DNA of 23,855 bases from a virus. This document shows positions 2,633 through 21,708 of this stretch, piece by piece (positions within the stretch are counted from its first letter, which is position 1; every line of letters starts with the position of its first letter). The notes below the pieces were generated by a model. It was not told where the DNA came from. It searched no databases and saw nothing but the letters and a program-made list of their open reading frames with translations. Where the stretch lies: IMG/VR virus record IMGVR_UViG_3300025276_000214, positions 1 to 23,855 of that record; one strand, given 5' to 3'. Position numbers and translations under genes: made by a program.

Positions 2633-3061
2633 ATGGACATAAGCAGTTTGAACGAGAAACACGAAGAAATGATTCACAAATATGTGAAATTTGTTCAAGG
2701 TACTGCATACACAGCTACTGAAGGATATGAAAGCAGTAAATTCTTGGGTTTCAATGATATAATATCTAATATAATAACATATACCAATTCATTTAATAAT
2801 ATGTTGGTTTCATCCAACAGAAGAACTGAATGGGCTTATATGACTCCTAATTTAATGCTTTATGCGACAATAGGTTTCTTGGAGGGGGTTAAAAATGATG
2901 AAAACAGTGATTTAATTGATGAATTATCAGAGGATTTATTTGAAACAACTGTAGATTTTGTAGGAGAAACAACAGATATTTTAGATGATATTGAGAAAAA
3001 AGAAGAAATGCAGAGAGAAATACTAACTAACCAAAAAACACAGAATGAGTATAACAATTAG
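2633..3061 (+). CDS. Hypothetical protein preceding the tail chaperone
   Basis: A 142-aa acidic, probably mostly helical soluble protein with no signal peptide or membrane segment. The middle contains GFNDIISNIITYTNSF and TEWAYMTPNLMLYATIGF. The last 50 residues are Asp/Glu-rich and probably form a coiled coil (DILDDIEKKEEMQREIL). I do not recognise a family. It is the first gene after the gap behind terL and its end overlaps the following chaperone gene by 17 bases, which suggests translational coupling and a role in tail assembly. The stop is TAG, rare in this window. Confidence 0.7.
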   Translation: MDISSLNEKHEEMIHKYVKFVQGTAYTATEGYESSKFLGFNDIISNIITYTNSFNNMLVSSNRRTEWAYMTPNLMLYATIGFLEGVKNDENSDLIDELSEDLFETTVDFVGETTDILDDIEKKEEMQREILTNQKTQNEYNN

Positions 3062-3758
3062 CATAAAAAGCCAAGATATAGACAGAGATGTAGTTATTCC
3101 TGTAGAATGGGAGGATATAACCGTTCAGTATTGGGGGGAATTATCTACAATAATAAAGAAACATTATAAAGATGCTTCTGATGGTGCGTTTAATGCAGAT
3201 GAAAAAACTCACGAATTACTTAAAGAGGGTATGTTTTCTGAGTTAAATCAAAATACAGAGCTAAATCCTAGTCAAACATTAAACATGAACTCTGATATAT
3301 TCTCATATATAACGGGATTAACAAGAGAGGAAGTAAATCTTGTTGATGTAGATGTAATAACAAGAGTAATAGAGTGCATAAATAAATTAACTAAAGAATA
3401 TGAAAATAAAGGTATTAAATCCTTTCAGTTAGATGGAGAAACATATAATTTCCCTTCTGAGTTTTTCAGAAAAGAAACTTATGGAGATTTTATTGAATCT
3501 ACTCAGCTAGATATGTACATTAAAGATATGGAAAATGGAAGGTACGATATACTTCCTGAACAGATGGCTATATTATGTAGAAGAACAGATGAAGAATACG
3601 ATGAAGCTTTAATCCCTGAAAAGGCAGATAAATTTAGAAAACTTACAATGGATATCATTTGGGAGTTCAGTTTTTTTTTGACTCATCAAAGCAAAAAATT
3701 AACGACACTTTTCCATACATATTCGGAGAACAAACAACAACTACAGGAGGAGCTGTGA
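3045..3758 (+). CDS. Probable tail assembly chaperone, short (zero-frame) form
   Basis: A 237-aa protein. Its start (SQDIDRDVVIPVEWEDITVQYW) resembles tail assembly chaperones of Bacteroidetes phages, which open with a strand, an IPxxWxxIT motif and a helix. Later segments (FPSEFFRKETYGDFIES, ILPEQMAILCRRTDEEYDE) fit the same family as I recall it. Such proteins are made as a short form and a frameshifted long form that coat the tape measure during tail assembly. Near the 3' end, at 3671-3679, is a run of nine T, and the -1 frame stays open from there to 3985 with protein-like sequence. The last 26 residues of this frame (after residue 211) would exist only in the unshifted product. Confidence 0.65.
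   Translation: MSITISIKSQDIDRDVVIPVEWEDITVQYWGELSTIIKKHYKDASDGAFNADEKTHELLKEGMFSELNQNTELNPSQTLNMNSDIFSYITGLTREEVNLVDVDVITRVIECINKLTKEYENKGIKSFQLDGETYNFPSEFFRKETYGDFIESTQLDMYIKDMENGRYDILPEQMAILCRRTDEEYDEALIPEKADKFRKLTMDIIWEFSFFLTHQSKKLTTLFHTYSENKQQLQEEL
3671..3679 (+). promoter_or_regulatory. T9 slippery site for -1 frameshifting
   Basis: Zero-frame codons across the run are AGT TTT TTT TTG (codons 209-212 of the chaperone). T TTT TTT and T TTT TTG are both permissive for a -1 slip of paired tRNAs. After the slip the ribosome reads TTT GAC TCA TCA and continues to TAA at 3983-3985. The frame difference (start 3045 versus -1) is that expected for a gpG/gpGT-type arrangement. I see no strong downstream hairpin. 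Polymerase slippage on the same run is an alternative mechanism. Confidence 0.6.
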
Positions 3759-3985
3759 ATACAAGAGGATTATATAAAACCTACATTGCACCATTTGGAT
3801 GGCTTAACAGCCTTTATATGTTGGCGGACAAGCAAGTGTTTAATGTAAATGGTAAAAATGGAATAGATAGCGTTAAAGAAACTAATTTGTATAATGTCTT
3901 AACATATCTTAGTTGGGTTACAGCAAAAAACACATACGAATCTAAAGTTCAAGAGAAAATTCACAATCCAAACAAAATAATGTAA
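3671..3985 (+). CDS. Tail assembly chaperone, frameshift extension (gpT-like part)
   Basis: This -1 frame adds about 101 residues to the chaperone, giving a long form of about 313 aa spanning 3045-3985. The extension contains GLYKTYIAPFGWLNSLYML and ETNLYNVLTYLSWVTAKN, which resembles the small second-frame products beside tail chaperones in Bacteroidetes phages. Within its own frame the only start ahead of the shared region is a TTG at 3659, with no good leader, so independent translation is unlikely. In the lambda model the long form carries the T domain that contacts tape measure and tube protein. Expression by frameshifting is an inference from the overlap, the slippery run and the context. 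Confidence 0.6.
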   Translation, partial: FFFDSSKQKINDTFPYIFGEQTTTTGGAVNTRGLYKTYIAPFGWLNSLYMLADKQVFNVNGKNGIDSVKETNLYNVLTYLSWVTAKNTYESKVQEKIHNPNKIM

Positions 3986-3986
3986 T

Positions 3987-5201
3987 ATGGCAATAGTAAG
4001 ATTAACAGATATAGTAGCAACAATGAAGAATAAATGGACTTATGGGGATAAGTTCTTTGGATATACAGAGGAGTTTAATGATAATCACAAAACTCAGTAC
4101 CCTTCTTTACTTATAACACCACCTGATTCAGTATATCCTGAAGTAACCCCTAGAAATGGTTGGGAGGAATACTCATTTGAGGTTTATTTTTCAGATTTAT
4201 ATAACAGAACAGCACAAAAGAACGAAAGTATAGAGCAAAGATGGGATAACCTTCAGGATTTAGCTAACGAGTGGTTAGATATGTTCCTAAAGAGTTATAT
4301 GAGGGGGTCTACAGGTGATGGAACTACCATAGCCTACTTAATGGATGGTAGTTTAGCTATTGAGAGAAAGAAAGAGGTTGCTAATGACCAACTTCTTCAA
4401 TTAAAGATGAATTTTGGGTATAGAATATTCAGCAAGTGCTTTGCTCCTGTTTCTAACTACCCAAATCAAATAAGCGGTTTAGCATCTTGGTTAAGAGCTG
4501 ATAGTAATGTTACATTTAGCATTCCTACTAAAAAAGTTAGTGCTGTTGGAGATGGTTCAGGTAAAGGAAATGGAGTTGCACAAACAGATAAAGCTTTTCA
4601 GCCCCTAAGATATACTTATGGTGGAGGTGCTTTAGATAAAACACAGTTTACTTTCTTTACTACTCCTGATTATAGTTTTTTGGTTTCAGACAATAAATTA
4701 GTTACATCAGAAAGTAATGACTTCTCAATATTTGAAGTTAGTAGGGTAAATGCAGTAAGTAATGCTGTATTTGGGTATTATAATTTAACTGATGGTTCTC
4801 TTATAGAGATGGGAACTAATGCTGCAGGCTCCTATGAGGTTTCTGTAAGTGATGGAGAAGCGGTCTTATTAATAAGAACAGAAACAGTTAATACAGGGAA
4901 ATATCATATTGGGGCTTTAAGAAAAAAAGGTCAGAGGGCTTATTTGGACTACTATGATTCTTCAAATTCTTATTCTGTTAATTCTAATAATGAAAGTTTT
5001 CAAATTAATAAATCTTACTCAGAAAAAAAGTTTAGAATAGGGTGTACGCAAATAACTGATGGATTATTACCTCCTGCAGCAATTAACACTAGATACTTAG
5101 ATGGAGATTTCCAAGAAGTTATCACTTATGATAGAAAATTAACAGATGCTGAAACAGCAAAAGTAGTAGATTATTTAAACAAAAAATATAGAATATATTA
5201 A
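3987..5201 (+). CDS. Tail protein with C-terminal lectin-like (LamG/ConA-type) domain
   Basis: A 404-aa protein that appears to have two parts. Residues 1 to about 150 resemble a phage tail completion-type domain (SFEVYFSDLYNRTAQKNESI, then a helix WDNLQDLANEWLDMFLKSY). Residues about 157-404 look like a concanavalin A-like/LamG beta-sandwich. It opens with ISGLASWLRADSNVT, has GDGSGKGNGVAQ, and closes with EVITYDRKLTDAE (377-389) and LNKKYRIY, the typical end of these domains. Such domains bind glycans, so a tail component that touches the host surface or capsule is likely. The ATG at 3987 lies one base after the preceding TAA, behind an A-rich leader. Confidence 0.65.
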   Translation: MAIVRLTDIVATMKNKWTYGDKFFGYTEEFNDNHKTQYPSLLITPPDSVYPEVTPRNGWEEYSFEVYFSDLYNRTAQKNESIEQRWDNLQDLANEWLDMFLKSYMRGSTGDGTTIAYLMDGSLAIERKKEVANDQLLQLKMNFGYRIFSKCFAPVSNYPNQISGLASWLRADSNVTFSIPTKKVSAVGDGSGKGNGVAQTDKAFQPLRYTYGGGALDKTQFTFFTTPDYSFLVSDNKLVTSESNDFSIFEVSRVNAVSNAVFGYYNLTDGSLIEMGTNAAGSYEVSVSDGEAVLLIRTETVNTGKYHIGALRKKGQRAYLDYYDSSNSYSVNSNNESFQINKSYSEKKFRIGCTQITDGLLPPAAINTRYLDGDFQEVITYDRKLTDAETAKVVDYLNKKYRIY

Positions 5202-5204
5202 GAT

Positions 5205-6992
5205 ATGGCAACAATAAATGGAACAGTAAAATGGGGTAAAACACCTCTTTGGTTTTCAGGTGATTTTTTTAACGACCAACAGCAAAACTTTAATGGTAAT
5301 TATTTAGTTTCAGCAGGTCTACCTATGGTTTATCAAGCAGTTTGGACTTCTAGTGGAGTTACAGACCAATACACTCCTTCAGCTGAAAAAGATATAGTAA
5401 ACTGCATATTTAGTGTTCAAGTGACTACAGGAGCTTCATCAGGATGGGAAACAATAGCAACAATTAGCAAAACTAGGGATTTAGCGGTAACAGATAGTGT
5501 TACATCTTCAGTTCCTCAATTTCAAACATTTACCATAGATGTTTCTTCTTTAATTTCAGACCAATTATCCTATTCTTTAACTCCATTGGGAATGGGTGGG
5601 TTGCAGACTGTAGAATGGGGTGGTATGAATGGGGGTGAAATAAAACAAGATAATATAACATCAGATGTAAGTCCTTATGTGGTTACTAGAAATGGGGCAT
5701 ATAGACAAGTTAGGGTTTTTTGTAATTTTGATATACTAACTAGTACAGGAGATTTAGAACTTGCAAGCACTACGCTAACAAGTGTTCCAAATGTTAGAGC
5801 TATAAATTCAGTACCTCCTACAGCAAACAATACTTACTATAATCAAATGCGTACTATACAGAAGTGGGGTACAAATTCTATAACCCCTAAGTTAGCAATG
5901 ACTAATTGTCCTAATTATGGCGTAGATACAAATAAAATACCTAGTTTGTATAAGCCTGTAGGTAGAGATGAGCATTCAGAGTTTTTATATTTTTTTATTA
6001 GAGAATCTTATAATGGTAATGACCCTACTGATTATTATAACCTGTATGAAGCTTACGGTCAAGCATATAATAAAGATGGAAGTACAGGTCTGAGTTTTGT
6101 ATTAGGTTCTACTTGGACAAACCAAAATGGATTAGAGGAAATAACTTCAGACATATCACATGATTTTTTTAAATATGATACAACTGTTTTTTCTCATTCA
6201 CAAAATTGCGTTTCATCACAAAATGTATCTCCTGCCTATATAAATAGCCACGCATACGCACCTCAAAACTCTAATTATCCTTATGTAACTGCTAGAACTC
6301 CAATTACAGCTGATACAGATTACTACAGAATATATCTTAGAGGTAATTACAATACAAATGTTAATAATGTATGGTCTGCAATCAGACATACAGCTGTATA
6401 TTTTTATAGAGTTAAAGACTATGAACCACAAGGAGCTTTTGAGAAAGTAAGATTTCATTGGCTTAATAGAGCAGGAGGTATAGATAGTTATACAGCAAAT
6501 AGAAATGTAGTTCAGGGGCTTCAAGTAAGTAAAAATATTATAGAATCAGCATTACCTGATAGAAGATATCATCAATCAAAAACACAAGCAGATGGGACTG
6601 CTCATACTTCAGGTAGTTATTACGATAGTACAATGAGGGGCTTTAATACATATAGAGGAGGTTCTGAAGTTGTTAGCTTAAACGCATCCACTTCTAAAAG
6701 TGTATATACAGAACCATTAACCTATTTAGAGTCTAAATGGCTAGAGGAATTATTTACATCTCCTAATGTATGGATTGAAGTAAATGCAGGAGGGGTAGAA
6801 AGTCAAGACTATAATCATGATATGGCTTATCACATTAATGAGTTAAATTCATATCAAAGACCCGAAAAAGCTTACTATTTACCTGTAATTATAACTAATA
6901 CAGAGGTTACTTCTGTAAATCAAGAGGAGGGGGTTACATCATACAATATAGAATATACAGAATCTCAAGAGATACTAACACAAAGAAATTAA
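5205..6992 (+). CDS. Probable tail-tip/baseplate structural protein
   Basis: A 595-aa protein rich in Ser, Thr, Asn and Tyr with predicted beta structure throughout and no signal peptide. A recognisable segment is VRFHWLNRAGGIDSYTANR (about 415-433), followed by SKWLEELFTSPNVWIEV (about 510-526) and PVIITNTEVTS. That combination recalls a tail protein that precedes the hub-like protein in many Bacteroidetes siphophages and may play a distal-tail role. It sits three bases after the lectin-domain protein and one base before the 1037-aa hub-like gene. The exact role cannot be read from sequence alone. Confidence 0.55.
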   Translation: MATINGTVKWGKTPLWFSGDFFNDQQQNFNGNYLVSAGLPMVYQAVWTSSGVTDQYTPSAEKDIVNCIFSVQVTTGASSGWETIATISKTRDLAVTDSVTSSVPQFQTFTIDVSSLISDQLSYSLTPLGMGGLQTVEWGGMNGGEIKQDNITSDVSPYVVTRNGAYRQVRVFCNFDILTSTGDLELASTTLTSVPNVRAINSVPPTANNTYYNQMRTIQKWGTNSITPKLAMTNCPNYGVDTNKIPSLYKPVGRDEHSEFLYFFIRESYNGNDPTDYYNLYEAYGQAYNKDGSTGLSFVLGSTWTNQNGLEEITSDISHDFFKYDTTVFSHSQNCVSSQNVSPAYINSHAYAPQNSNYPYVTARTPITADTDYYRIYLRGNYNTNVNNVWSAIRHTAVYFYRVKDYEPQGAFEKVRFHWLNRAGGIDSYTANRNVVQGLQVSKNIIESALPDRRYHQSKTQADGTAHTSGSYYDSTMRGFNTYRGGSEVVSLNASTSKSVYTEPLTYLESKWLEELFTSPNVWIEVNAGGVESQDYNHDMAYHINELNSYQRPEKAYYLPVIITNTEVTSVNQEEGVTSYNIEYTESQEILTQRN

Positions 6993-11450: not shown

Positions 11451-14400
11451 ATGGCAAGTAAGGTAGCAATAGAAGTAGAAATTAAAAACATTAAACAGGT
11501 TGCTGATTTAAAGAAATCATTAAAAGCATTAAGAAAAGAAACTAGTGATTATGAAAAAGAAATAGCTAATGGGAAGAAAGCTACCAAAGAATCTACAAAA
11601 GGATATATAGATTCTTCTAAAGCAATTAAAAATCAATCTAAGGATTTAAGAAATTTAAAGAAAGATTTAAGTGGCTCTAATAAAGCAACAAAAGCTGTTA
11701 CGAAATCATCTAATGGGATGGCAAAGCAGTTCATTAAAGGTGCTGCAGCTATTGGAGTTATTGTCGGTGCGTTTAGATTAGTAAACCAAGTAGTTAGTTC
11801 TGTAGTTATGACTTTTGCTGAGTTTGAATTTGTTATGGCTAAAGTTCAAGCAGTTTCAGGTGCTACTGATTCGGAGTTTAAACAATTAACAGCTTCTGCA
11901 GAGGAGTTAGGTAGAACAACATTCTTTACAGCAGCACAGGTAGGGGAATTACAACTAGCATTTTCTAAATTAGGTTTTACTGCATCTGAAATAATGGATG
12001 CACAGAAAGCAACATTAGACTTAGCAACTGCAACAGGAACAGATTTGGCTAGAGCAGCACAGGTAGCAGGTGCAGCAGTAAGGGGTTTTGGATTAGATGC
12101 TAGTGAAACTGAAAGAGTTGTAGATGTTATGGCTGTTTCCTTTGCAAGTTCTGCTATGGATATTGAGAAGTGGAGTACATCTATGACTAAGGTTGCACCT
12201 ATTGCAAAGTCAGCAGGATTCTCTATAGAAGATACTGCAGCTATGATGTCAAAGCTTACAGATTCAGGTATTGAAGCTTCTATTGCAGGTACATCTTTAA
12301 GAAATATATTGCTTAAAATGCAAGACCCTACATCAGACTTATCAATGAACTTTGGAAAAACTATACATAGTTTAGATGAGTTAGTTCCTGCTATGAAAGG
12401 GTTTATAGCAGATGGTGGGGATATGGCTGATATTTTAGAGGTTGTAGATTTAAGACAAGCAGCAGCTTTTGAGCAAATGCTTACTACTGCAGATGGAACT
12501 TTAGCATTAAGAGATTCATTGAAAGAAGCTAACGGAGAAGGAGCAAGAATGGCAGGTATTGTTGGAGATACTTTGCAGGGTGCGTTTTTAAAATTTACTT
12601 CTGCAGTTCAGGGTATATCTATATCTGTTATGAAGGGTTTTTCAGAAGGACTTCAGGGAGCTATAGAAAATATAGCATCATTCTTTAATGTTATTGCTAA
12701 AAATAGTAAAACAATAGTAAGTATAATAAAAGGAATTACAACTCTAGCTAAATGGTTTGGTATATATAAGCTTACACTAATAGCTGTTTCAGGACTAACA
12801 ACTGCTTATATTAAAATTATGGCTTTGCAAGGAAAAGTAGCTATGCAAGCAGCAGCAGGAATGACCGTTCTATCAAGAGCTACTATGGTTGCAAAAAGGT
12901 CTATTAACGCACTTATGGGAAGTACAGGTATAGGGCTTTTAATAGTAGGTCTTACTGAATTAATTCCTTGGCTAATGAGTACGAATGATGAACTTGAGGA
13001 AACTGCAAGTTTGACTGATACTGTTACTAAAAGCTATCAAGATTCATTAAAACCTATAGAGCAAATAACTATTACATCAAAAGAATTGTTAAGGGTTAAG
13101 ACTCAGATGAATAAAATGACAGATGAGGAGGGTAACCTCATAGAAAATACTGCTGTTAAGCAAAAGGTGTATAATAAGCTTAAGGGTCAGGCTACTATAC
13201 TAACAAGAAGTTTAAATAGAGAACTTAAAGAAAATGACCAATCTTTAATTACTGAAAAAACATCTATTGAGGATGTAGCTGCAGCAATAGATATTCTTAC
13301 TAAATCTTTAACTGAACAAGCATTAGTTAAGGGTTTTACAAAGCAGATAGAAAAAATTACTGAGGTTGCTGCTAATGCTGAGATAACAAAACAATCACTT
13401 ATATCAGCTTTAAAAATTGAATCAACTGATATATTTGGAGAGGTTGATATGGAAGCAGCACTAGATGCTGAACTTGCTTATATAGAGGAATTTGCAGGTG
13501 TATATAAAAGTGTAGGTAAGGAGGCTGATATAGTTAATAAATTATTAGCAGAAGGAGGATTTAAAACTTATGATGAACTTCAGGAATCATTGGGTACAGT
13601 TGAAGAAAAAATGTCTATTGTAACTAAGGCATTTGATGTGCAGGCGGGAGGAAAGGGAATAGGAGCTTTAATTTTAGCAAGAGGAAAATTAGATAAAGGA
13701 ACAGATACTAATATAAAAACAATTAAGAATTGGGCAACTGAAACTACTTTAGCAATAAATGAAGTAAAAAGACAAAGATTTGAATTAGGATTAACAGAAG
13801 AAGAATACGCTAGAAATATATTAGAAACTCAGCTTAGACTTATAAGAGAAGAAAAAGCGGCTTACTTGAAAAGTCTTACGGCTAAAGGAAAAACAAAGAA
13901 AGCTAATGTAGATAAGATGACTGCCTTTGAGAAAAAAGAAGTAGACCTTTTATTAAAAATTCAAAATGATTATTTTAAACAAAAGATGTCTGACTTGAAT
14001 AAACTTAATACAGCTACAAATAATCAGATAAGAGAAGAATTTACTGTTAATGGCAGCTTAACAGAACAAGGTCAAACTGCATTACTCAAACAAGAGATAG
14101 ATTTTCTTACTTCTAAAGGGCAGCTTCATGATAACTATAGAATAGTTTTAACAGGTAATAACGAGAAGATAGCACAAAGTAATAGAAAGTTGCACGAACA
14201 GAATATGGCTGAACTTCAACAGCAGATAGGAGCTATGAGTGGAGTTGGAAGTGCATTGACAACCTTAGCAGGTGAAAATGAAGCTTTAATAAAAGTTAAG
14301 GAATTAGGTAACAAAATAAATCAAGCTGCTACTGTTATAAACGCTGCACTAGCACTGCAAGAGAATTTAGTAACATTAGGCTTGATTAAAAATAGTGCTG

Positions 14401-15086
14401 CTGAGGTAGTAAATACTACAGTTAAAACAACAGGTGTAGCAGTAGAAGAAGCATTAGTACTTGTAAAATCTCAAGATGCGGCTGTTACAGGAGTATCAAC
14501 AGTAGCTAACCTAGCTAACGCAACATCAGCAGGTGTTGAAGCTACAGCCACAATAGGAAGTACAATAGCAACTACACTTAGTATTATCCCTAAAGCTATT
14601 GGTTCAATACTATCAGCTGCTATGGCAATACCGTTCCCCTTTAATCTTTTTGCAATAGCGAAGACTTGGCAAATGATTAATAAAGTTAAGAGGTCTAAAT
14701 TTGAAGAAGGTGGTGTGATAGATGGAGGAGATAAGTTTGCAAATGGAGGAATGGTTCATGGAGCAAGTCATGCTAATGGAGGTGTTAAGTTCGCTGTAGG
14801 CGGTAGAGTAAATGAACTAGAGGGTGGAGAGGCTGTTATAAATAAAAGAAGCACAAAAATGTTTAGAAATCAATTATCATCTATGAATGAAGCAGGTGGA
14901 GGTGTTAAGTTTGCAGATGGAGGGCTACTCAGTTCACCTTCCTTTGCTGAATCACAATTTGATGCAGAAAATCAATCTAAAATGATGGGGGCTATGCAAG
15001 GTCAAAGAAAAGTAGTAGTAGTAGAGTCAGATATAACAACAAGTCAATCAACAGTTAGCACAATACAAGCTAACGCAACCTTTTAA
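11451..15086 (+). CDS. Tail tape measure protein
   Basis: At 1211 aa this is the longest gene in the window. It determines tail length and occupies the tube lumen. The N-terminal 90 residues are a Lys-rich coiled coil. A hydrophobic segment (about 98-120) follows, and then a TP901-type tape-measure core (about 123-300; FAEFEFVMAKVQAVSG, AEELGRTTFFTAAQVGELQ, GFSIEDTAAMMSKLTDSG). Further hydrophobic stretches lie near 415-460, 490-510 and 1035-1075, fitting membrane passage at DNA ejection. The C-terminus is Gly-rich with NGGVKFAVGG and GGGVKFADGG repeats flanking GGEAVINKRS (about 1125-1134), a motif common at the ends of Bacteroidetes tape measures. The length predicts a tail of roughly 180 nm at 0.15 nm per residue. 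Confidence 0.9.
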   Translation: MASKVAIEVEIKNIKQVADLKKSLKALRKETSDYEKEIANGKKATKESTKGYIDSSKAIKNQSKDLRNLKKDLSGSNKATKAVTKSSNGMAKQFIKGAAAIGVIVGAFRLVNQVVSSVVMTFAEFEFVMAKVQAVSGATDSEFKQLTASAEELGRTTFFTAAQVGELQLAFSKLGFTASEIMDAQKATLDLATATGTDLARAAQVAGAAVRGFGLDASETERVVDVMAVSFASSAMDIEKWSTSMTKVAPIAKSAGFSIEDTAAMMSKLTDSGIEASIAGTSLRNILLKMQDPTSDLSMNFGKTIHSLDELVPAMKGFIADGGDMADILEVVDLRQAAAFEQMLTTADGTLALRDSLKEANGEGARMAGIVGDTLQGAFLKFTSAVQGISISVMKGFSEGLQGAIENIASFFNVIAKNSKTIVSIIKGITTLAKWFGIYKLTLIAVSGLTTAYIKIMALQGKVAMQAAAGMTVLSRATMVAKRSINALMGSTGIGLLIVGLTELIPWLMSTNDELEETASLTDTVTKSYQDSLKPIEQITITSKELLRVKTQMNKMTDEEGNLIENTAVKQKVYNKLKGQATILTRSLNRELKENDQSLITEKTSIEDVAAAIDILTKSLTEQALVKGFTKQIEKITEVAANAEITKQSLISALKIESTDIFGEVDMEAALDAELAYIEEFAGVYKSVGKEADIVNKLLAEGGFKTYDELQESLGTVEEKMSIVTKAFDVQAGGKGIGALILARGKLDKGTDTNIKTIKNWATETTLAINEVKRQRFELGLTEEEYARNILETQLRLIREEKAAYLKSLTAKGKTKKANVDKMTAFEKKEVDLLLKIQNDYFKQKMSDLNKLNTATNNQIREEFTVNGSLTEQGQTALLKQEIDFLTSKGQLHDNYRIVLTGNNEKIAQSNRKLHEQNMAELQQQIGAMSGVGSALTTLAGENEALIKVKELGNKINQAATVINAALALQENLVTLGLIKNSAAEVVNTTVKTTGVAVEEALVLVKSQDAAVTGVSTVANLANATSAGVEATATIGSTIATTLSIIPKAIGSILSAAMAIPFPFNLFAIAKTWQMINKVKRSKFEEGGVIDGGDKFANGGMVHGASHANGGVKFAVGGRVNELEGGEAVINKRSTKMFRNQLSSMNEAGGGVKFADGGLLSSPSFAESQFDAENQSKMMGAMQGQRKVVVVESDITTSQSTVSTIQANATF

Positions 15087-17042: not shown

Positions 17043-18149
17043 ATGGCAGCAGTAGATGTAGCACAAAATGGACTAGGAGGATTATATCAAGGCACTTACG
17101 CTTCAGGTATATTACTAGAGCCTATGTTCCATTCAGATGATATTATGAGAAATTATACTATCTATCCAAATGTAAAGTTTAAACAAAATATCACAATGGC
17201 TCCTTCATTGAGTAGTATTACTACTGTAAATGCAGGGTGTACTAGTACTTCAGACACTTGTACTAATAGCTTTTCTGTAACTCAGAAAGTTCTTATGGTA
17301 GAAAATGTTGCAGTTAAGCAAGAGCAATGTTGGGATGAGTTCAAATCAGAAGTAATTGTAGAGTCTTATAGAAATGGTGTTAATATGCCTGACTTAACAG
17401 GAACGCAATTAGCTCAGGTAATTATTGACAGAGTAAGAAATGGTATTCAGTCTGACATGGTAAGAAATATGTGGGCAGGAGATAATGCAGCAGCAGTTGT
17501 AGCTATTGACTGTACTTACGCATCAATGGGAGATGGACTATGGGTAACATTATCAGCAGGAGGAGCAATTAATGGAACTCAAATGAATGAAGTACAAGGA
17601 ACTTTAGGTGCAGCAGCAACTCAGTATGTTACTGTAGCAGCTACTTTACCTACAGCAGATGCAATTCTTATACTAGAATCTGTATATAATACTGCTTCAG
17701 CAGCATTAGCATCAGTACCTGCATCAGAGAAAAGAATTTTCTGTAATCCAAATATTTATAATGCTTGGTATAGTGCATTAACTCAAGTTGCCGCAGCAGG
17801 AGCAGTTGATTATGGACATTCGGAAGCTCAAGCAGGAAAACAAAGATTATACTTTAGAGGTATAGAATTAGTACCTATGTATGAGTGGGATACAGCTTTA
17901 ACAGCTTTAGCAGGAGCAACTTTCCCTGCATTATTTACAGCAGCAGGAGCAGGAATTGATGCAACTGCAGGATGTATTTACACAGTAAAATCTAACTTAT
18001 TTATCGGTACTGATGTAACAAGTCCTGAAAATGAGTTAAGAACATTTTATGATGAGGTTTCTGACAAAATGTATATTAGAGCAGGATTCACTATGGGCTT
18101 CCAATACGGTTGGAACGCTTTAGTTAATGGAGCTGTACTAGTAGACTAA
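17043..18149 (+). CDS. Major capsid protein (HK97-like)
   Basis: A 368-aa protein directly downstream of the prohead protease, the normal place for the capsid subunit. It has the composition of a major capsid protein (rich in Ala, Gly, Thr; few Lys clusters), and FCNPNIYNAWYSAL, LYFRGIELVPMYEW and NELRTFYDEVSDKMYIRAGFTMG are segments of the sort seen in HK97-fold capsid proteins of Bacteroidetes phages. Cys66 and Cys73 lie close together near the N-terminus (GCTSTSDTCT). An N-terminal delta domain is not obvious; the separate scaffold-like region of the protease could fill that role. The leader is A-rich. Confidence 0.8.
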   Translation: MAAVDVAQNGLGGLYQGTYASGILLEPMFHSDDIMRNYTIYPNVKFKQNITMAPSLSSITTVNAGCTSTSDTCTNSFSVTQKVLMVENVAVKQEQCWDEFKSEVIVESYRNGVNMPDLTGTQLAQVIIDRVRNGIQSDMVRNMWAGDNAAAVVAIDCTYASMGDGLWVTLSAGGAINGTQMNEVQGTLGAAATQYVTVAATLPTADAILILESVYNTASAALASVPASEKRIFCNPNIYNAWYSALTQVAAAGAVDYGHSEAQAGKQRLYFRGIELVPMYEWDTALTALAGATFPALFTAAGAGIDATAGCIYTVKSNLFIGTDVTSPENELRTFYDEVSDKMYIRAGFTMGFQYGWNALVNGAVLVD

Positions 18150-18185: not shown

Positions 18186-18217
18186 AATACTTTTCTTAAT
18201 TTTAAAAATAAAATAAA

Positions 18218-18811
18218 ATGGCGATAACAAACGGAATAAATATATTATGTTCAGATATAGTAGGAGCAGGGGGAATTAGGAATGTACTTATTAGGACTTG
18301 GGCAGATGGAGATTCTATATCATACACAAATACTGCTACAACTCATGGTATAAGTAGCATTAAAGACACAGGTGGCTCTACAGCTACTTGGTTTAATTAT
18401 GAGTTTAAGCAAGAATTACCTTCTTTAACTGTTACTGCAGCAAGAGAAAATGGTTCTACTTCTTATGAGTGTGCTTTAAACTTTATGATGCCTGATATGG
18501 ATACTGCAAAAGCAGCAGCATTGCAAAGTCTTATGGACACTTGTATGATGGTAATAGCAGTTGGTAATAATGGTAAGGCTTATGTTTTAGGAGTAAGTCA
18601 GAAGTATAGTAATGAAAAAGCTACAATTCGTAACCAAACTTTTGCTAGTATGACAGGAGCTGAAGGTGCTACAGGTGCAGGAATAAATGATGATAATGGT
18701 TGGACTGTAACAATGGGATGTAAGCAATGGGAAGCACCTAGACTGTATAGTGGTAATCTAACTTTATATACGAATGCAGGGTCAGGAACAGGAACATCTA
18801 CTACATCATAA
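18218..18811 (+). CDS. Tail tube-like protein, copy 1
   Basis: A 197-aa protein resembling major tail tube proteins of Bacteroidetes siphophages: MAITNGINILCSD at the start, a central beta domain with STSYECALNFMMP, an insertion around NGKAYVLGVSQKYSN, and a C-terminal NGWTVTMGCKQWEAPRLYSG. It is clearly paralogous to the next gene (shared MAI..G..I.CSD....GG.R, ATW, SLTV, YEC, TVT and PR-Y-G in the same order). The A-rich 14-base leader before the ATG is also the same as in the next gene. Tube proteins polymerise around the tape measure. A capsid decoration role is the main alternative. Confidence 0.6.
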   Translation: MAITNGINILCSDIVGAGGIRNVLIRTWADGDSISYTNTATTHGISSIKDTGGSTATWFNYEFKQELPSLTVTAARENGSTSYECALNFMMPDMDTAKAAALQSLMDTCMMVIAVGNNGKAYVLGVSQKYSNEKATIRNQTFASMTGAEGATGAGINDDNGWTVTMGCKQWEAPRLYSGNLTLYTNAGSGTGTSTTS

Positions 18812-18837
18812 TAATTAATAATAAAAAATAAAATAAA

Positions 18838-19473
18838 ATGGCAATAGCAGATGGAATGCAAATTAATTGTTCTGACTTACAAGCTGTAGGAGGAACAAGA
18901 TTTATAGCAGTAAGAAAATGGACTAATACGGATATAGTTACATTTGATGATACTGCCCACACAGTTACAGTTATAGATAGTGCAGCAAATACAGGTGCTA
19001 CTTGGGGTGTTTTTGAAAGCAGAATTGAATCTTCTTCTTTAACAGTATCAGGTGCAAGCGAGGGTAAAGAATTTTCAACTTACGAGTGTACTTTATCTTG
19101 GTTTATTCCTGGATTAACAACAGCTCAATTCGCAACACTTTATCAGTTTGATGGGGATTGTTTAATGGCAATGGTTATAGATAATAATGATACAACTTCA
19201 GGAACTACAATACCTAGTACAGACCAAATTCACAATAAACTAATAGGAATATCAAATACCTTAGCAAGTCAAGATGGTACTGCAGGTGCTTATACTGCTG
19301 AAAGAACTCAGCAATGGTGTAGACTTCAGTCAGTTGAGGGTGGAACAGGAGCAGCTTTCTCTGATGAGATTGGTGTTACAGTAACTCTTGTTGCAAAAAC
19401 TTATGAAATACCAAGAGCTTATGCAGGTGCTATCACTATTGATAGTGATGGTTTAGGTTTAGTTACATCATAA
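18838..19473 (+). CDS. Tail tube-like protein, copy 2
   Basis: A 211-aa paralog of the preceding protein: MAIADGMQINCSD, ATWGVFESRIESSSLTVSG, STYECTLSWFIPG and GVTVTLVAKTYEIPRAYAG follow the same order as in copy 1. Copy 2 has an extra stretch near DNNDTTSGTTIPSTDQ. Divergence is large, so the duplication is old or the pair was acquired as such. The two may form a mixed tube, or one may serve as terminator, tip or decoration protein. The leader AAAAATAAAATAAA is identical to that of copy 1. A terminator-like hairpin follows. Confidence 0.6.
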   Translation: MAIADGMQINCSDLQAVGGTRFIAVRKWTNTDIVTFDDTAHTVTVIDSAANTGATWGVFESRIESSSLTVSGASEGKEFSTYECTLSWFIPGLTTAQFATLYQFDGDCLMAMVIDNNDTTSGTTIPSTDQIHNKLIGISNTLASQDGTAGAYTAERTQQWCRLQSVEGGTGAAFSDEIGVTVTLVAKTYEIPRAYAGAITIDSDGLGLVTS

Positions 19474-19522: not shown

Positions 19523-19546
19523 TAATATCTTTTATAATATGTGTGA

Positions 19547-19574
19547 TTGTAATACGGAAAAAAGTTTAATTTTG
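19547..19574 (+). promoter_or_regulatory. Promoter 4 ahead of the portal unit, TTG-17-TAATTTTG
   Basis: TTG at 19547-19549 and TAATTTTG at 19567-19574 are separated by 17 bases, matching the Bacteroidetes housekeeping promoter (TTG, 17-23 bases, TAnnTTTG). Transcription would start near 19579, before the ATG at 19593 but after the upstream in-frame ATG at 19539, and so favours the later start. The AAAGTT(T/G)CGTA element of the other late promoters is absent. Confidence 0.6.
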
Positions 19575-19592
19575 ATAAATATATATACAGAA

Positions 19593-19847
19593 ATGGCAGA
19601 ATACAAAGTAAACGACAAGGCTCAGAGGGGATTAAGACTAGCAGGAAGGGATGAGGAAAGTCTTGGTAAGGAGTTTGTAGATTTTAGAGGAGAATTAAGT
19701 CAAGCTGAATTAGCTTATGCTTATGAGGAATTACATATAACTGATTGGATAGATAAAACTGATAAAGTAAATGAAAAAGCAACAACCAAAAAATCAACAA
19801 GCAAAAAAGCAACCACAACAATTACGGAAAACTCAGAAGAAGAATAA
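19593..19847 (+). CDS. Small protein upstream of portal, connector-like or accessory
   Basis: An 84-aa protein (MAEYKVNDKAQRGLRLAG...). The core (EFVDFRGELSQAELAYAYEE) is a short acidic helical domain like small proteins next to portal genes in Bacteroidetes phages. The tail from about residue 60 is Lys/Thr-rich and then acidic. The frame is open back to an ATG at 19539, but promoter 4 lies between that ATG and 19593, and 19593 has a good A-rich leader. Its last 77 bases also encode the start of the portal protein in another frame. Function unknown. Confidence 0.6.
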   Translation: MAEYKVNDKAQRGLRLAGRDEESLGKEFVDFRGELSQAELAYAYEELHITDWIDKTDKVNEKATTKKSTSKKATTTITENSEEE

Positions 19848-21102
19848 CACTTTTGAGTTCGGAGTATTTGATTTAACAGTCCCACCTAGTATTACTGAGG
19901 TAAAAGACCTTAAATCACTTAATAATGATTGGGTTCCTTTTGGAGAAGACAACTTATTTCCTCAGTATTTAGCAGAGTTAAAGAGAAAGTCATCTACACA
20001 TAGAAGTGTATTGGCTCAAAAGACTGTCTTTACAAGTGGAGCTAAATTTGTTTGTGAGAATGAATCATTAAGAGAGTTTATTGAGGATGTTAATGCTGAT
20101 AAAGAATCTCTAAGAGATGTTTTTAAGAAGTTAGCAGATGATTACTATACTTTTGGTAATGCTTATATGGAGTGTGTTATATATGATGGAGGTGTAAACC
20201 TTTACCATTTAGATGCAACTACTGTAAGAATGTCCAAGACTAAGAAAGAGGTTTACATAAACCCTGATTGGTGTAAGTATTGGAATCAAGATAAAAAAAT
20301 AAAAAGACTACCTATATACCCTAGAGTAGCACATAACAAGTTTGTAATTCACTTTAAGGATTACGAGCCTACATTTAACTTTTACGGACTTCCTGATTAT
20401 GTAGCAGCACTAGAGCATATCTGTGTTGATTACGAAATTGGAAAATGGAATCATACTAAATTCTTAAACGGATTTCAACCTTCAGCTATTGTTGAGATTA
20501 GTGGAGATATGGGAGAAGAAGAAGCTCAAAAGATGGTTCACGAAGCTCAAAAGAAATTTGTAGGAGAAGGTAATAATGGTAAAATTCTATTTATAGTTAA
20601 GAATGGAGATACATCTCCTGCTAATGTTCAGATTATAAAAGATGACCAAGAAGGAAGTTGGATTGATTTACAACAGATTACCGACCAAAATATTATAACT
20701 GCTAACAGATGGCAGCCATCACTTTCAGGTATTGTTAGTTCAGGAAAAATGAACAACTCAGGAAGTGAGATTAGAATTGCCTATGACTTGGTAATGACTA
20801 CGGTAATTAGAGATACTTCTGAGTTAATATTAAACGGTATAAGAACAGTTCTTTATAATGAGCTAGGATTTGACCCTAAAGATTTAAAGATTCATTATGA
20901 GCCACCAATCTCATACGCTAATGATGTAGATATTAAACAAGTTCTTACTATAAACGAACAAAGAGCATTAATTGATGAGGACTTACCAATGCTAGAAGAT
21001 GGTGATATGTTTGTAGCGGATAGAGAGGTTATAGTAGTTGAAAAAGATAATGATGGAGATGGTGAGCCTGATGAAAGTAAAGAAATAACTGTAGAGCAAT
21101 AA
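19771..21102 (+). CDS. Phage portal protein
   Basis: A 443-aa portal protein, the dodecameric ring through which DNA enters and leaves the head. Family-like segments are DWVPFGEDNLFPQYLAEL (53-70), HRSVLAQKTVFTSGAKF (77-93), the clip/stem-proximal DDYYTFGNAYMECVIYDGG (123-141), FYGLPDYVAALEH (204-216), KFLNGFQPSAIVEISG (230-245) and the late helical RIAYDLVMTTVI (335-346). Length fits compact siphophage portals. The first 25 residues are Lys/Gln-rich and overlap the preceding gene. The C-terminus has an acidic DNDGDGEPDE stretch (427-436) resembling a calcium-binding loop. Its place downstream of capsid and tube genes is unusual. Confidence 0.9.
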   Translation: MKKQQPKNQQAKKQPQQLRKTQKKNNTFEFGVFDLTVPPSITEVKDLKSLNNDWVPFGEDNLFPQYLAELKRKSSTHRSVLAQKTVFTSGAKFVCENESLREFIEDVNADKESLRDVFKKLADDYYTFGNAYMECVIYDGGVNLYHLDATTVRMSKTKKEVYINPDWCKYWNQDKKIKRLPIYPRVAHNKFVIHFKDYEPTFNFYGLPDYVAALEHICVDYEIGKWNHTKFLNGFQPSAIVEISGDMGEEEAQKMVHEAQKKFVGEGNNGKILFIVKNGDTSPANVQIIKDDQEGSWIDLQQITDQNIITANRWQPSLSGIVSSGKMNNSGSEIRIAYDLVMTTVIRDTSELILNGIRTVLYNELGFDPKDLKIHYEPPISYANDVDIKQVLTINEQRALIDEDLPMLEDGDMFVADREVIVVEKDNDGDGEPDESKEITVEQ

Positions 21103-21105
21103 AAT

Positions 21106-21708
21106 ATGGGTAATACTAAGCAATATAAAACATTAGTAAGTGCAGGAGAAGTAATTGATAAAACCTTCACCAACAAGAATACAGACCCTGTATTAGTTTC
21201 AGAGAACACTATTGTATTGTCTGAGTTAGCACATATTAGACCCTTATTAGGAGAAAAGTTTTATGCAGAATTAAAGCTTCAACATGATACAGGGACTTTA
21301 AGTGTTAATAATCAGTCGTTTATGACTTATTACCTAGAGGATACCTTATCTTGGTTTGTTAGATTTGAGGTTGTTAATGATATTATGAGTAATATATCAT
21401 CTAGTGGAGTAGTTAATAATATAGATGAGTTCTCAAGAATAATAAGCCAAGACACATATAATACATTCAAGCAAGATACATACAGGAAAGCAGATATATT
21501 TGCTAACGATATGATGGACTTTTTGAATGGTACTGACCAAACAGGACTATATCCTACATTTGCTAGCAATAGACCTAAGAGTATGAATGATACATATAAA
21601 AATCATGGAATGATATTCTATGACAGTATATATGGTTATGATGGAGTTGATGGTTGCTATAGCTGTGGAAATCCCTATGTAAGAGGTAAATCAAATTGTA
21701 ATTGTTAA
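21106..21708 (+). CDS. Putative head-tail connector protein
   Basis: A 200-aa, mostly helical protein directly downstream of the portal. LVSENTIVLSELAHIRPLLGEKFYAELK and the tyrosine-rich helix around TYYLEDTLSWFVRFEV match the general form of head-completion/connector proteins in Bacteroidetes phages (DUF6712-like, by memory). The C-terminal 17 residues carry Cys184, Cys187, Cys198 and Cys200, a possible metal site or disulfide pair. The position after portal supports an adaptor that docks on the portal ring. Confidence 0.5.
   Translation: MGNTKQYKTLVSAGEVIDKTFTNKNTDPVLVSENTIVLSELAHIRPLLGEKFYAELKLQHDTGTLSVNNQSFMTYYLEDTLSWFVRFEVVNDIMSNISSSGVVNNIDEFSRIISQDTYNTFKQDTYRKADIFANDMMDFLNGTDQTGLYPTFASNRPKSMNDTYKNHGMIFYDSIYGYDGVDGCYSCGNPYVRGKSNCNC

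Follow-up and report, generated by a model that had tools for sequence, protein, structure and literature searches.

Two paralogous tail tube-like genes in a phage of the Bacteroidota type: a candidate mixed tail tube that seems to be exchanged as a block with a single-gene version

The phage tail tube is normally pictured as a stack of copies of a single protein, in some cases accompanied by a longer form of it (PMC8718954); in SPP1, two forms of the tube protein are present in one tail at a 3:1 ratio (PMC8718954). Outside phages, the type VI secretion system (T6SS) of Bacteroides has heterohexameric Hcp rings made of paralogs, according to the title of PDB 9vne and to PMC13323088. Here, we describe a virus record of 23,855 bases (the window) in which two neighboring genes, tA and tB, encode diverged tail tube-like proteins. 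We propose that these are two paralogous major tail proteins that form one mixed tail tube and are traded as a block, a reading to which we give an even chance of being right.

The first gene, tA (positions 18218–18811, plus strand), encodes a tail tube-like protein of 197 residues, and the second, tB (18838–19473, plus strand), a tail tube-like paralog of 211 residues. Both are complete genes with their own starts and stops, and BLASTP aligns their products almost from one end to the other at 32% identity (E 3e-34), which is far beyond chance. tA and tB are true paralogs. The original prediction, made from the DNA letters, had listed two proteins of these lengths with motifs in the same order, and both points proved correct. 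Motifs that the two proteins share in this order include MAI..G....C.D....GG.R at the N terminus, W...E, YEC, and an NN turn, and near the C terminus EG..GA...D[DE].G.TVT is strongly conserved in both copies. No other plus-strand open reading frame (ORF) of at least 90 residues in the window matches the family profile.

All the recognized genes in the window lie on the plus strand. Its head protease, portal, and DUF6712 genes were named by family match; appearance and position served to assign the terminase, tail, tape measure, and capsid genes. To the left, the pair is flanked by the gene for the probable major capsid protein (17043–18149, plus strand), so called because it follows the head maturation protease; its PHROG matches are of unknown function only. 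To the right, a small gene starting MCDC (small gene x; 19539–19847, plus strand) lies between the tube genes and the portal gene that flanks the cassette (19771–21102, plus strand; PF04860, E 3.3e-19). There follows a DUF6712 protein (21106–21708, plus strand; PF20459, E 2.6e-12), whose position points to a head–tail adaptor role. A protein of 1211 residues (11451–15086, plus strand) is, from its size and position, the probable tape measure. The pair is part of a tailed-phage module of virion genes. Elsewhere in the window, ORF 3659–3985 lies in the -1 frame relative to ORF 3045–3758, which it overlaps, and nine consecutive T occupy 3671–3679 of the overlap; the two look like a tail assembly chaperone pair made via -1 frameshifting (gpG/gpGT type). 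In the ORF at 3987–5201, residues 157–403 match the virion structural protein profile phrog_10356 (E 6.1e-6), and the location and appearance of the N-terminal part suggest a tail terminator; the gene is possibly a fusion of two tail parts.

For tA and tB, Pfam gave no match at E 1 and the PDB no credible sequence match; tblastn with tA, tB, and the capsid protein against 50,697 phage records led to no named family. In PHROGs, tA matches phrog_19091, of unknown function (E 6.9e-5, residues 17–182), as does the single-copy protein L087 (E 0.0012), and tB has no match at E 1. A pattern scan of a bacterial and archaeal genome collection confirmed 0 relatives among 38 candidate stretches. The portal protein is 24 to 25% identical to those of Nonlabens phages, and from this distant kinship, together with low GC and A-rich leaders lacking a Shine–Dalgarno sequence, we infer a Bacteroidota host. 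We take the phage to be long-tailed.

We then asked how many copies of the gene are present in relatives. IMG/VR searches provided 236 stretches besides the window's own, many of which overlap on the same contig; three of these searches cover the best 80 of 364, of 269, and of 82 confirmed places. Capsid and portal genes are both present in 193 of the 237 stretches (window included), representing 118 distinct intervals. Among the matches listed, one tube-like gene is found in 64 of these intervals, two in 54, and three in none, no further copy is present elsewhere in those stretches, and the order capsid–tube gene(s)–small gene x–portal holds in 118/118. The interval lengths are bimodal (864 to 969 and 1536 to 1676 bases), and 18 mapped loci have largely the same neighbors whether they hold one or two copies. 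In whole records, 10/10 chosen one-copy contigs (29 to 38 kb) gave one match each and 8/8 chosen two-copy contigs (26 to 38 kb) gave two, none of these contigs being rated complete by the tool.

Both genes start from the same A-rich leader of 14 bases, AAAAATAAAATAAA, which occupies 18204–18217 before tA and 18824–18837 before tB (plus strand). The 19-mer AAAAATAAAATAAAATGGC is present at these two starts and nowhere else in the window, with still no third match when 3 mismatches are allowed; 0.14 matches are expected per shuffle, and at least two were seen in 1/100 shuffles. The identical leaders that had been pointed out beforehand are thus genuine, but they do not single out tA and tB as specially linked, because single-copy and capsid genes have similar leaders. 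Among the matches listed, identical 14-mers precede both genes in 12 of the 54 two-copy cassettes, and the exact 14-mer of the window also precedes 8 of the 64 single-copy genes. The mean leader distance is 2.74 mismatches within a cassette versus 3.33 between cassettes. We therefore dropped the idea that leader identity is a relic of the duplication or a special link, since it varies in relatives and the same kind of leader is present on single-copy and capsid genes.

Counting A in the last 14 bases before the start, averaged over distinct sequences, we found means of 12.3 for capsid (n = 17), 11.3 for tB (n = 34), 11.3 for single (n = 44), and 10.9 for tA genes (n = 35). Ten other genes have 9.5 or less: gene 21718, 9.5 (n = 61); tape measure, 9.0 (n = 5); DUF6712, 8.1 (n = 72); portal, 8.0 (n = 13); neck-like gene, 6.7 (n = 6); protease, 3.3 (n = 7); and the remaining four, 7 to 9 with one row each. 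In this comparison, several genes rest on 1 to 7 rows, and some low-A genes start inside the preceding gene, which constrains their leader sequence. Window gene 15106, which is outside both the capsid/tube set and the ten-gene test, has 11/14 A, equal to the window capsid gene. Bacteroidetes naturally lack Shine–Dalgarno sequences, and adenine at position -3 favors initiation (PMC6847099). The A-rich leader hints at a strong start region of virion proteins predicted to be abundant, alike for tA, tB, and the capsid protein.

Structure prediction of each protein lends support to the label "tail tube-like" that they had been given from the letters, with modest scores. AlphaFold2, run with 22 close relatives for tB and 20 for tA, produced a tB model (pLDDT 70, pTM 0.71) predicted to consist of a beta-sandwich with a flanking helix. 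The tA model is poor (pLDDT 47, pTM 0.42) and might improve with a deeper alignment; because the two proteins are homologous, tA is expected to have the fold of tB. When tB was compared to known structures by VIA-align, 47 of the 50 listed rows were, from their titles, phage-tail, pyocin-like, extracellular contractile injection system (eCIS), or T6SS parts, including Hcp and monocin tube, GTA, SPP1, and 80alpha proteins; 2/50 had uninformative titles, and 1/50 was an oxidoreductase (listed rows, Z 5.2 to 7.3, rmsd 2.9 to 4.7 Å). For the tA model of pLDDT 47, 45/50 titles were of these same kinds, including Mu, lambda gpV, eCIS, and SPP1 tube proteins; an uncharacterized protein came first (Z 7.0), followed by tail-type rows (best Z 6.7). 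Since Z values up to 7.3 are at a level that the tool calls common and any single row can be due to chance, our argument for a tube-type fold is the uniformity of the neighbor lists, in which tail tubes, Hcp, and tail or baseplate rings make up most entries, and no single row's score. The best matches in a viral structure library are mostly uncharacterized phage proteins, including one from Polaribacter phage Leef_1 and one from Nonlabens phage P12024L. A tube/Hcp-like fold is thus cautiously supported for tB and expected for tA. Foldseek against the PDB found no match for tB at E 0.001 (best E 1.1e-3, TM 0.26). Its first rows are a head–tail interface protein (9lwa, E 1.1e-3) and the 80alpha baseplate chain 6v8i_AC, followed by eCIS baseplate chains and tail terminators. 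Unrelated rows include astrovirus capsid spikes and a protein from Burkholderia (E 0.025). The spikes are weak matches (best E 0.11, probability ≤ 0.12), and the capsid-spike fold that the original prediction had considered as the contrary outcome was not seen.

These first Foldseek rows would fit a model in which tA alone built the tube and tB were a specialized ring at one tail end, either adjoining the neck or adjoining the distal tail complex; tube-fold proteins commonly form end rings. We nevertheless consider this unlikely because the tB leader is as rich in A as that of the single tube gene (mean 11.3/14), unlike those of portal, DUF6712, and neck-like genes, and because 11 mapped one-copy loci with largely the same neighbors have no extra ring gene in the place of tB.

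How the two copies diverged can be read from the relatives. Six positions are conserved (≥75%) within first copies and within second copies but differ between the two, and at 5/6 the commonest residue of the singles is that of the first copies. It follows that tB is the more changed copy, tA being nearest to the single gene of one-copy relatives. Second copies have a median length of 207 residues, versus 196 and 193 for the others, and their insertion sits at different places in different subgroups. In the window's subgroup, the tB loop after the conserved NN is longer (residues ~118 to 134); we rejected this as a general mark of tB since the distant second copies L103, L105, and L108 lack the loop and have the insertion elsewhere. 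The expectation that both genes are maintained by selection held true, and this selection is purifying, with dN/dS below 1 in every counted pair. Median values, from related and hence nonindependent pairs, were 0.28 for tA, 0.46 for tB, 0.06 for portal, and 0.30 for capsid in two-copy phages, and 0.27 for single, 0.12 for portal, and 0.25 for capsid in one-copy phages.

The higher dN/dS of tB than of tA also fits an accessory role, in which tB would replace some tA subunits and alter the outer surface (adsorption or host factor) as a dispensable decoration, comparable to the longer gp17.1 of SPP1. The loop lengths of tB, which vary between subgroups, and the one-copy phages that manage without it point the same way. 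However, an independent extra of this kind predicts tA without tB, or tB beside a single-type gene, and neither is present in the 118 intervals among the matches listed; in addition, no added domain was recognized in tB, or in tA, using Pfam and PHROGs. On balance, decoration is an improbable role for tB.

To determine how the one-gene and two-gene versions are related, we built trees for the tube proteins (172 rows thinned to 114), portal (118 intervals, 103 once short portals were dropped, 61 after thinning), capsid (118 intervals, then 106, then 78 rows), and small gene x (118 reduced to 72 rows, with few columns and many weak forks). On the tube tree, first copies are found on one side of a branch (SH-aLRT 99) and second copies on one side of another (100), and the first/second/single labels need 2 changes, the minimum possible; a careful tree of 93 rows agrees on this separation. 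In the careful tree, the singles fall between the first-copy and second-copy groups, and 0% of 200 bootstrap trees unite them; in the larger set, a tree constrained to keep them together escapes rejection and has a marginally better fit (p-AU 0.58). The picture is different for the flanking genes. The one/two state changes 12 times on the portal tree (at least 9 forced by the starred branches, ~20 in shuffles) and 15 times on the capsid tree (at least 10 forced, ~26 in shuffles). The state is therefore somewhat clustered by ancestry, yet it has switched repeatedly. Since it interleaves on the portal and capsid trees, yet first, second, and single proteins separate on the tube tree with the fewest possible changes, we conclude that the two genes travel together, and one-gene and two-gene versions seem, from these sequences, to replace each other by recombination.

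We also compared six close pairs of opposite copy state. In L132 (one gene) and L103 (two genes), portal windows are 96 to 99% identical, the available 150 bases of the capsid end 92%, and the stretch across the first tube gene 78%. The corresponding figures for L107/L149 are 94 to 100% for portal and 71 to 91% for capsid, and the portals of L234/L210 are 78 to 92% identical. Most pairs are nearly identical on the portal side, and there are often differences toward the capsid as well. On its own tree, small gene x follows the copy state almost as closely as the tube genes do, the one/two label needing 3 changes. Reading the pairs L103/L132, L107/L149, and L162/L203 by eye, we found its Lys/Ser-rich end almost unchanged and its first part different, which suggests that the exchanged block includes this first part. 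Separately, the capsid gene seems to recombine alone, in view of the 15 label changes on its own tree, and the window and L003 have capsid proteins that are 77% identical and portals that are 100% identical.

The coupling of tA and tB alleles suggests coupled function. Physical linkage could also explain it, if divergence prevents crossovers within the genes: because single and first copies have drifted apart, exchanges would fall outside them, and small gene x also follows the copy state with no known partnership. As for tape measures, the 35 relatives in which this gene is complete have lengths from 764 to 1289 residues, which makes a wide range of tail lengths probable within the group. We considered a link between a longer tape measure and two copies (median 1019 residues, n = 13, versus ~884, n = 22; P 0.006) and dropped it because the rows are related; two-copy phages outside the main two-copy portal clade, with tape measures of 863, 866, and 878 residues, also count against it.

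The following scenario for a mixed tube would account for these observations. An ancestral single tube gene between the capsid and portal genes, still present in many relatives, would have been duplicated, with tA keeping most ancestral features and tB changing more. Both genes would start from a strong A-rich leader, making both proteins abundant in the virion, and the two would build a single mixed tail tube around the tape measure, most likely from rings holding both proteins (or from alternating rings). Mutual dependence of tA and tB would then have led to their exchange as a block. In this scenario, virion abundance, co-assembly, and mutual dependence are the inferred steps. We favor the mixed tube over an end ring or decoration because of the strong leader of tB and the allele coupling between tA and tB, and our confidence is slightly reduced by the loop difference not being general and by the capsid side differing in several pairs. 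A stricter version, in which the tube is an obligate two-gene product made of mixed tA–tB rings, neither protein makes a tube alone, and the cassette is traded against a one-protein tube between otherwise close phages, is plausible but tentative. Counting against the mixed tube, phages with one copy and an almost identical portal do without tB, which is therefore unnecessary in principle. Although their place in the head module between capsid and portal, away from the probable chaperone and tape measure genes, and the lack of a match to any named tube family would suit head-associated or connector proteins with a tube/Hcp fold, we find this quite unlikely for tA and tB given that no other plus-strand window ORF of at least 90 residues matches the family profile, that their A-rich leader resembles that of the capsid gene, and that most listed model neighbors are tube-type proteins.

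Distant relatives of the pair are present in a cultured phage. Nonlabens phage P12024L (NC_018272), a seawater isolate, encodes two paralogs, gp03 (2149–2694) and gp09 (5953–6552), which are 31% identical over ~156 residues (E 3e-21), match phrog_19091 (E 2e-98 and 4e-95, respectively), and are both annotated as hypothetical. gp03 directly follows gp02, which we take for the capsid protein, and gp09 follows the portal and gp08. With the profile of the window family, gp03 is matched at E 1.9e-4, and Leef1_44 and gp09 give weaker matches. In a profile comparison with 67 selected proteins from Leef_1, Freya_1, Flavobacterium phage 1H, and P12024L, gp03 scored 32.6 (probability 48%), Leef1_44 27.5 (17%), gp09 25.7 (10%), and the next protein 18.6; none of the selected Freya_1 and 1H proteins stood out. 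The P12024L tape measure, absent from that list, scored 23.9 in another comparison, close to gp09, and the kinship of gp09 therefore rests more on its likeness to gp03. Like the window, P12024L has two paralogs in one phage; unlike tA and tB, these are nonadjacent, with the portal between them, and may stem from a separate duplication. Doubled tube-like genes thus occur in at least two arrangements, with perhaps two origins.

How does the pair compare with characterized systems? With siphovirus major tail proteins (SPP1 gp17.1, lambda gpV, 80alpha, and GTA), which are among the listed structural neighbors, tA and tB share a predicted beta-sandwich with a flanking helix; they differ from these in having no sequence match to them, in lying between capsid and portal genes, and in being two separate paralogs. 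SPP1 also has two versions of its tube protein, but these come from one gene in which a frameshift adds an FN3 domain (PMC8718954), whereas tA and tB are two diverged complete genes with no recognized added domain. The Hcp proteins of Bacteroides are likewise paralogs with a tube fold, in the same phylum as the inferred host, although they serve a secretion system rather than a phage tail and mixed rings of tA and tB are only inferred. Among the papers listed from the mainly open-access literature, none was seen to describe a siphovirus with two tube paralogs encoded by separate genes.

These comparisons indicate why the pair is of interest. Phages whose portals are almost alike but which have either one or two tube genes would make it possible to ask directly what a second subunit does, whether for length, flexibility, DNA passage, or surface, and if the obligate pair is true, nature has run this swap of one-protein and two-protein tubes many times. 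A testable tube identity is also suggested for this family, which in cultured phages carries the label hypothetical, and the heteromeric Hcp rings of Bacteroides make the comparison with tA and tB timely. Set against the systems above, the pair appears ordinary in its predicted fold but unusual as an exchangeable one-or-two-gene cassette with matched alleles.
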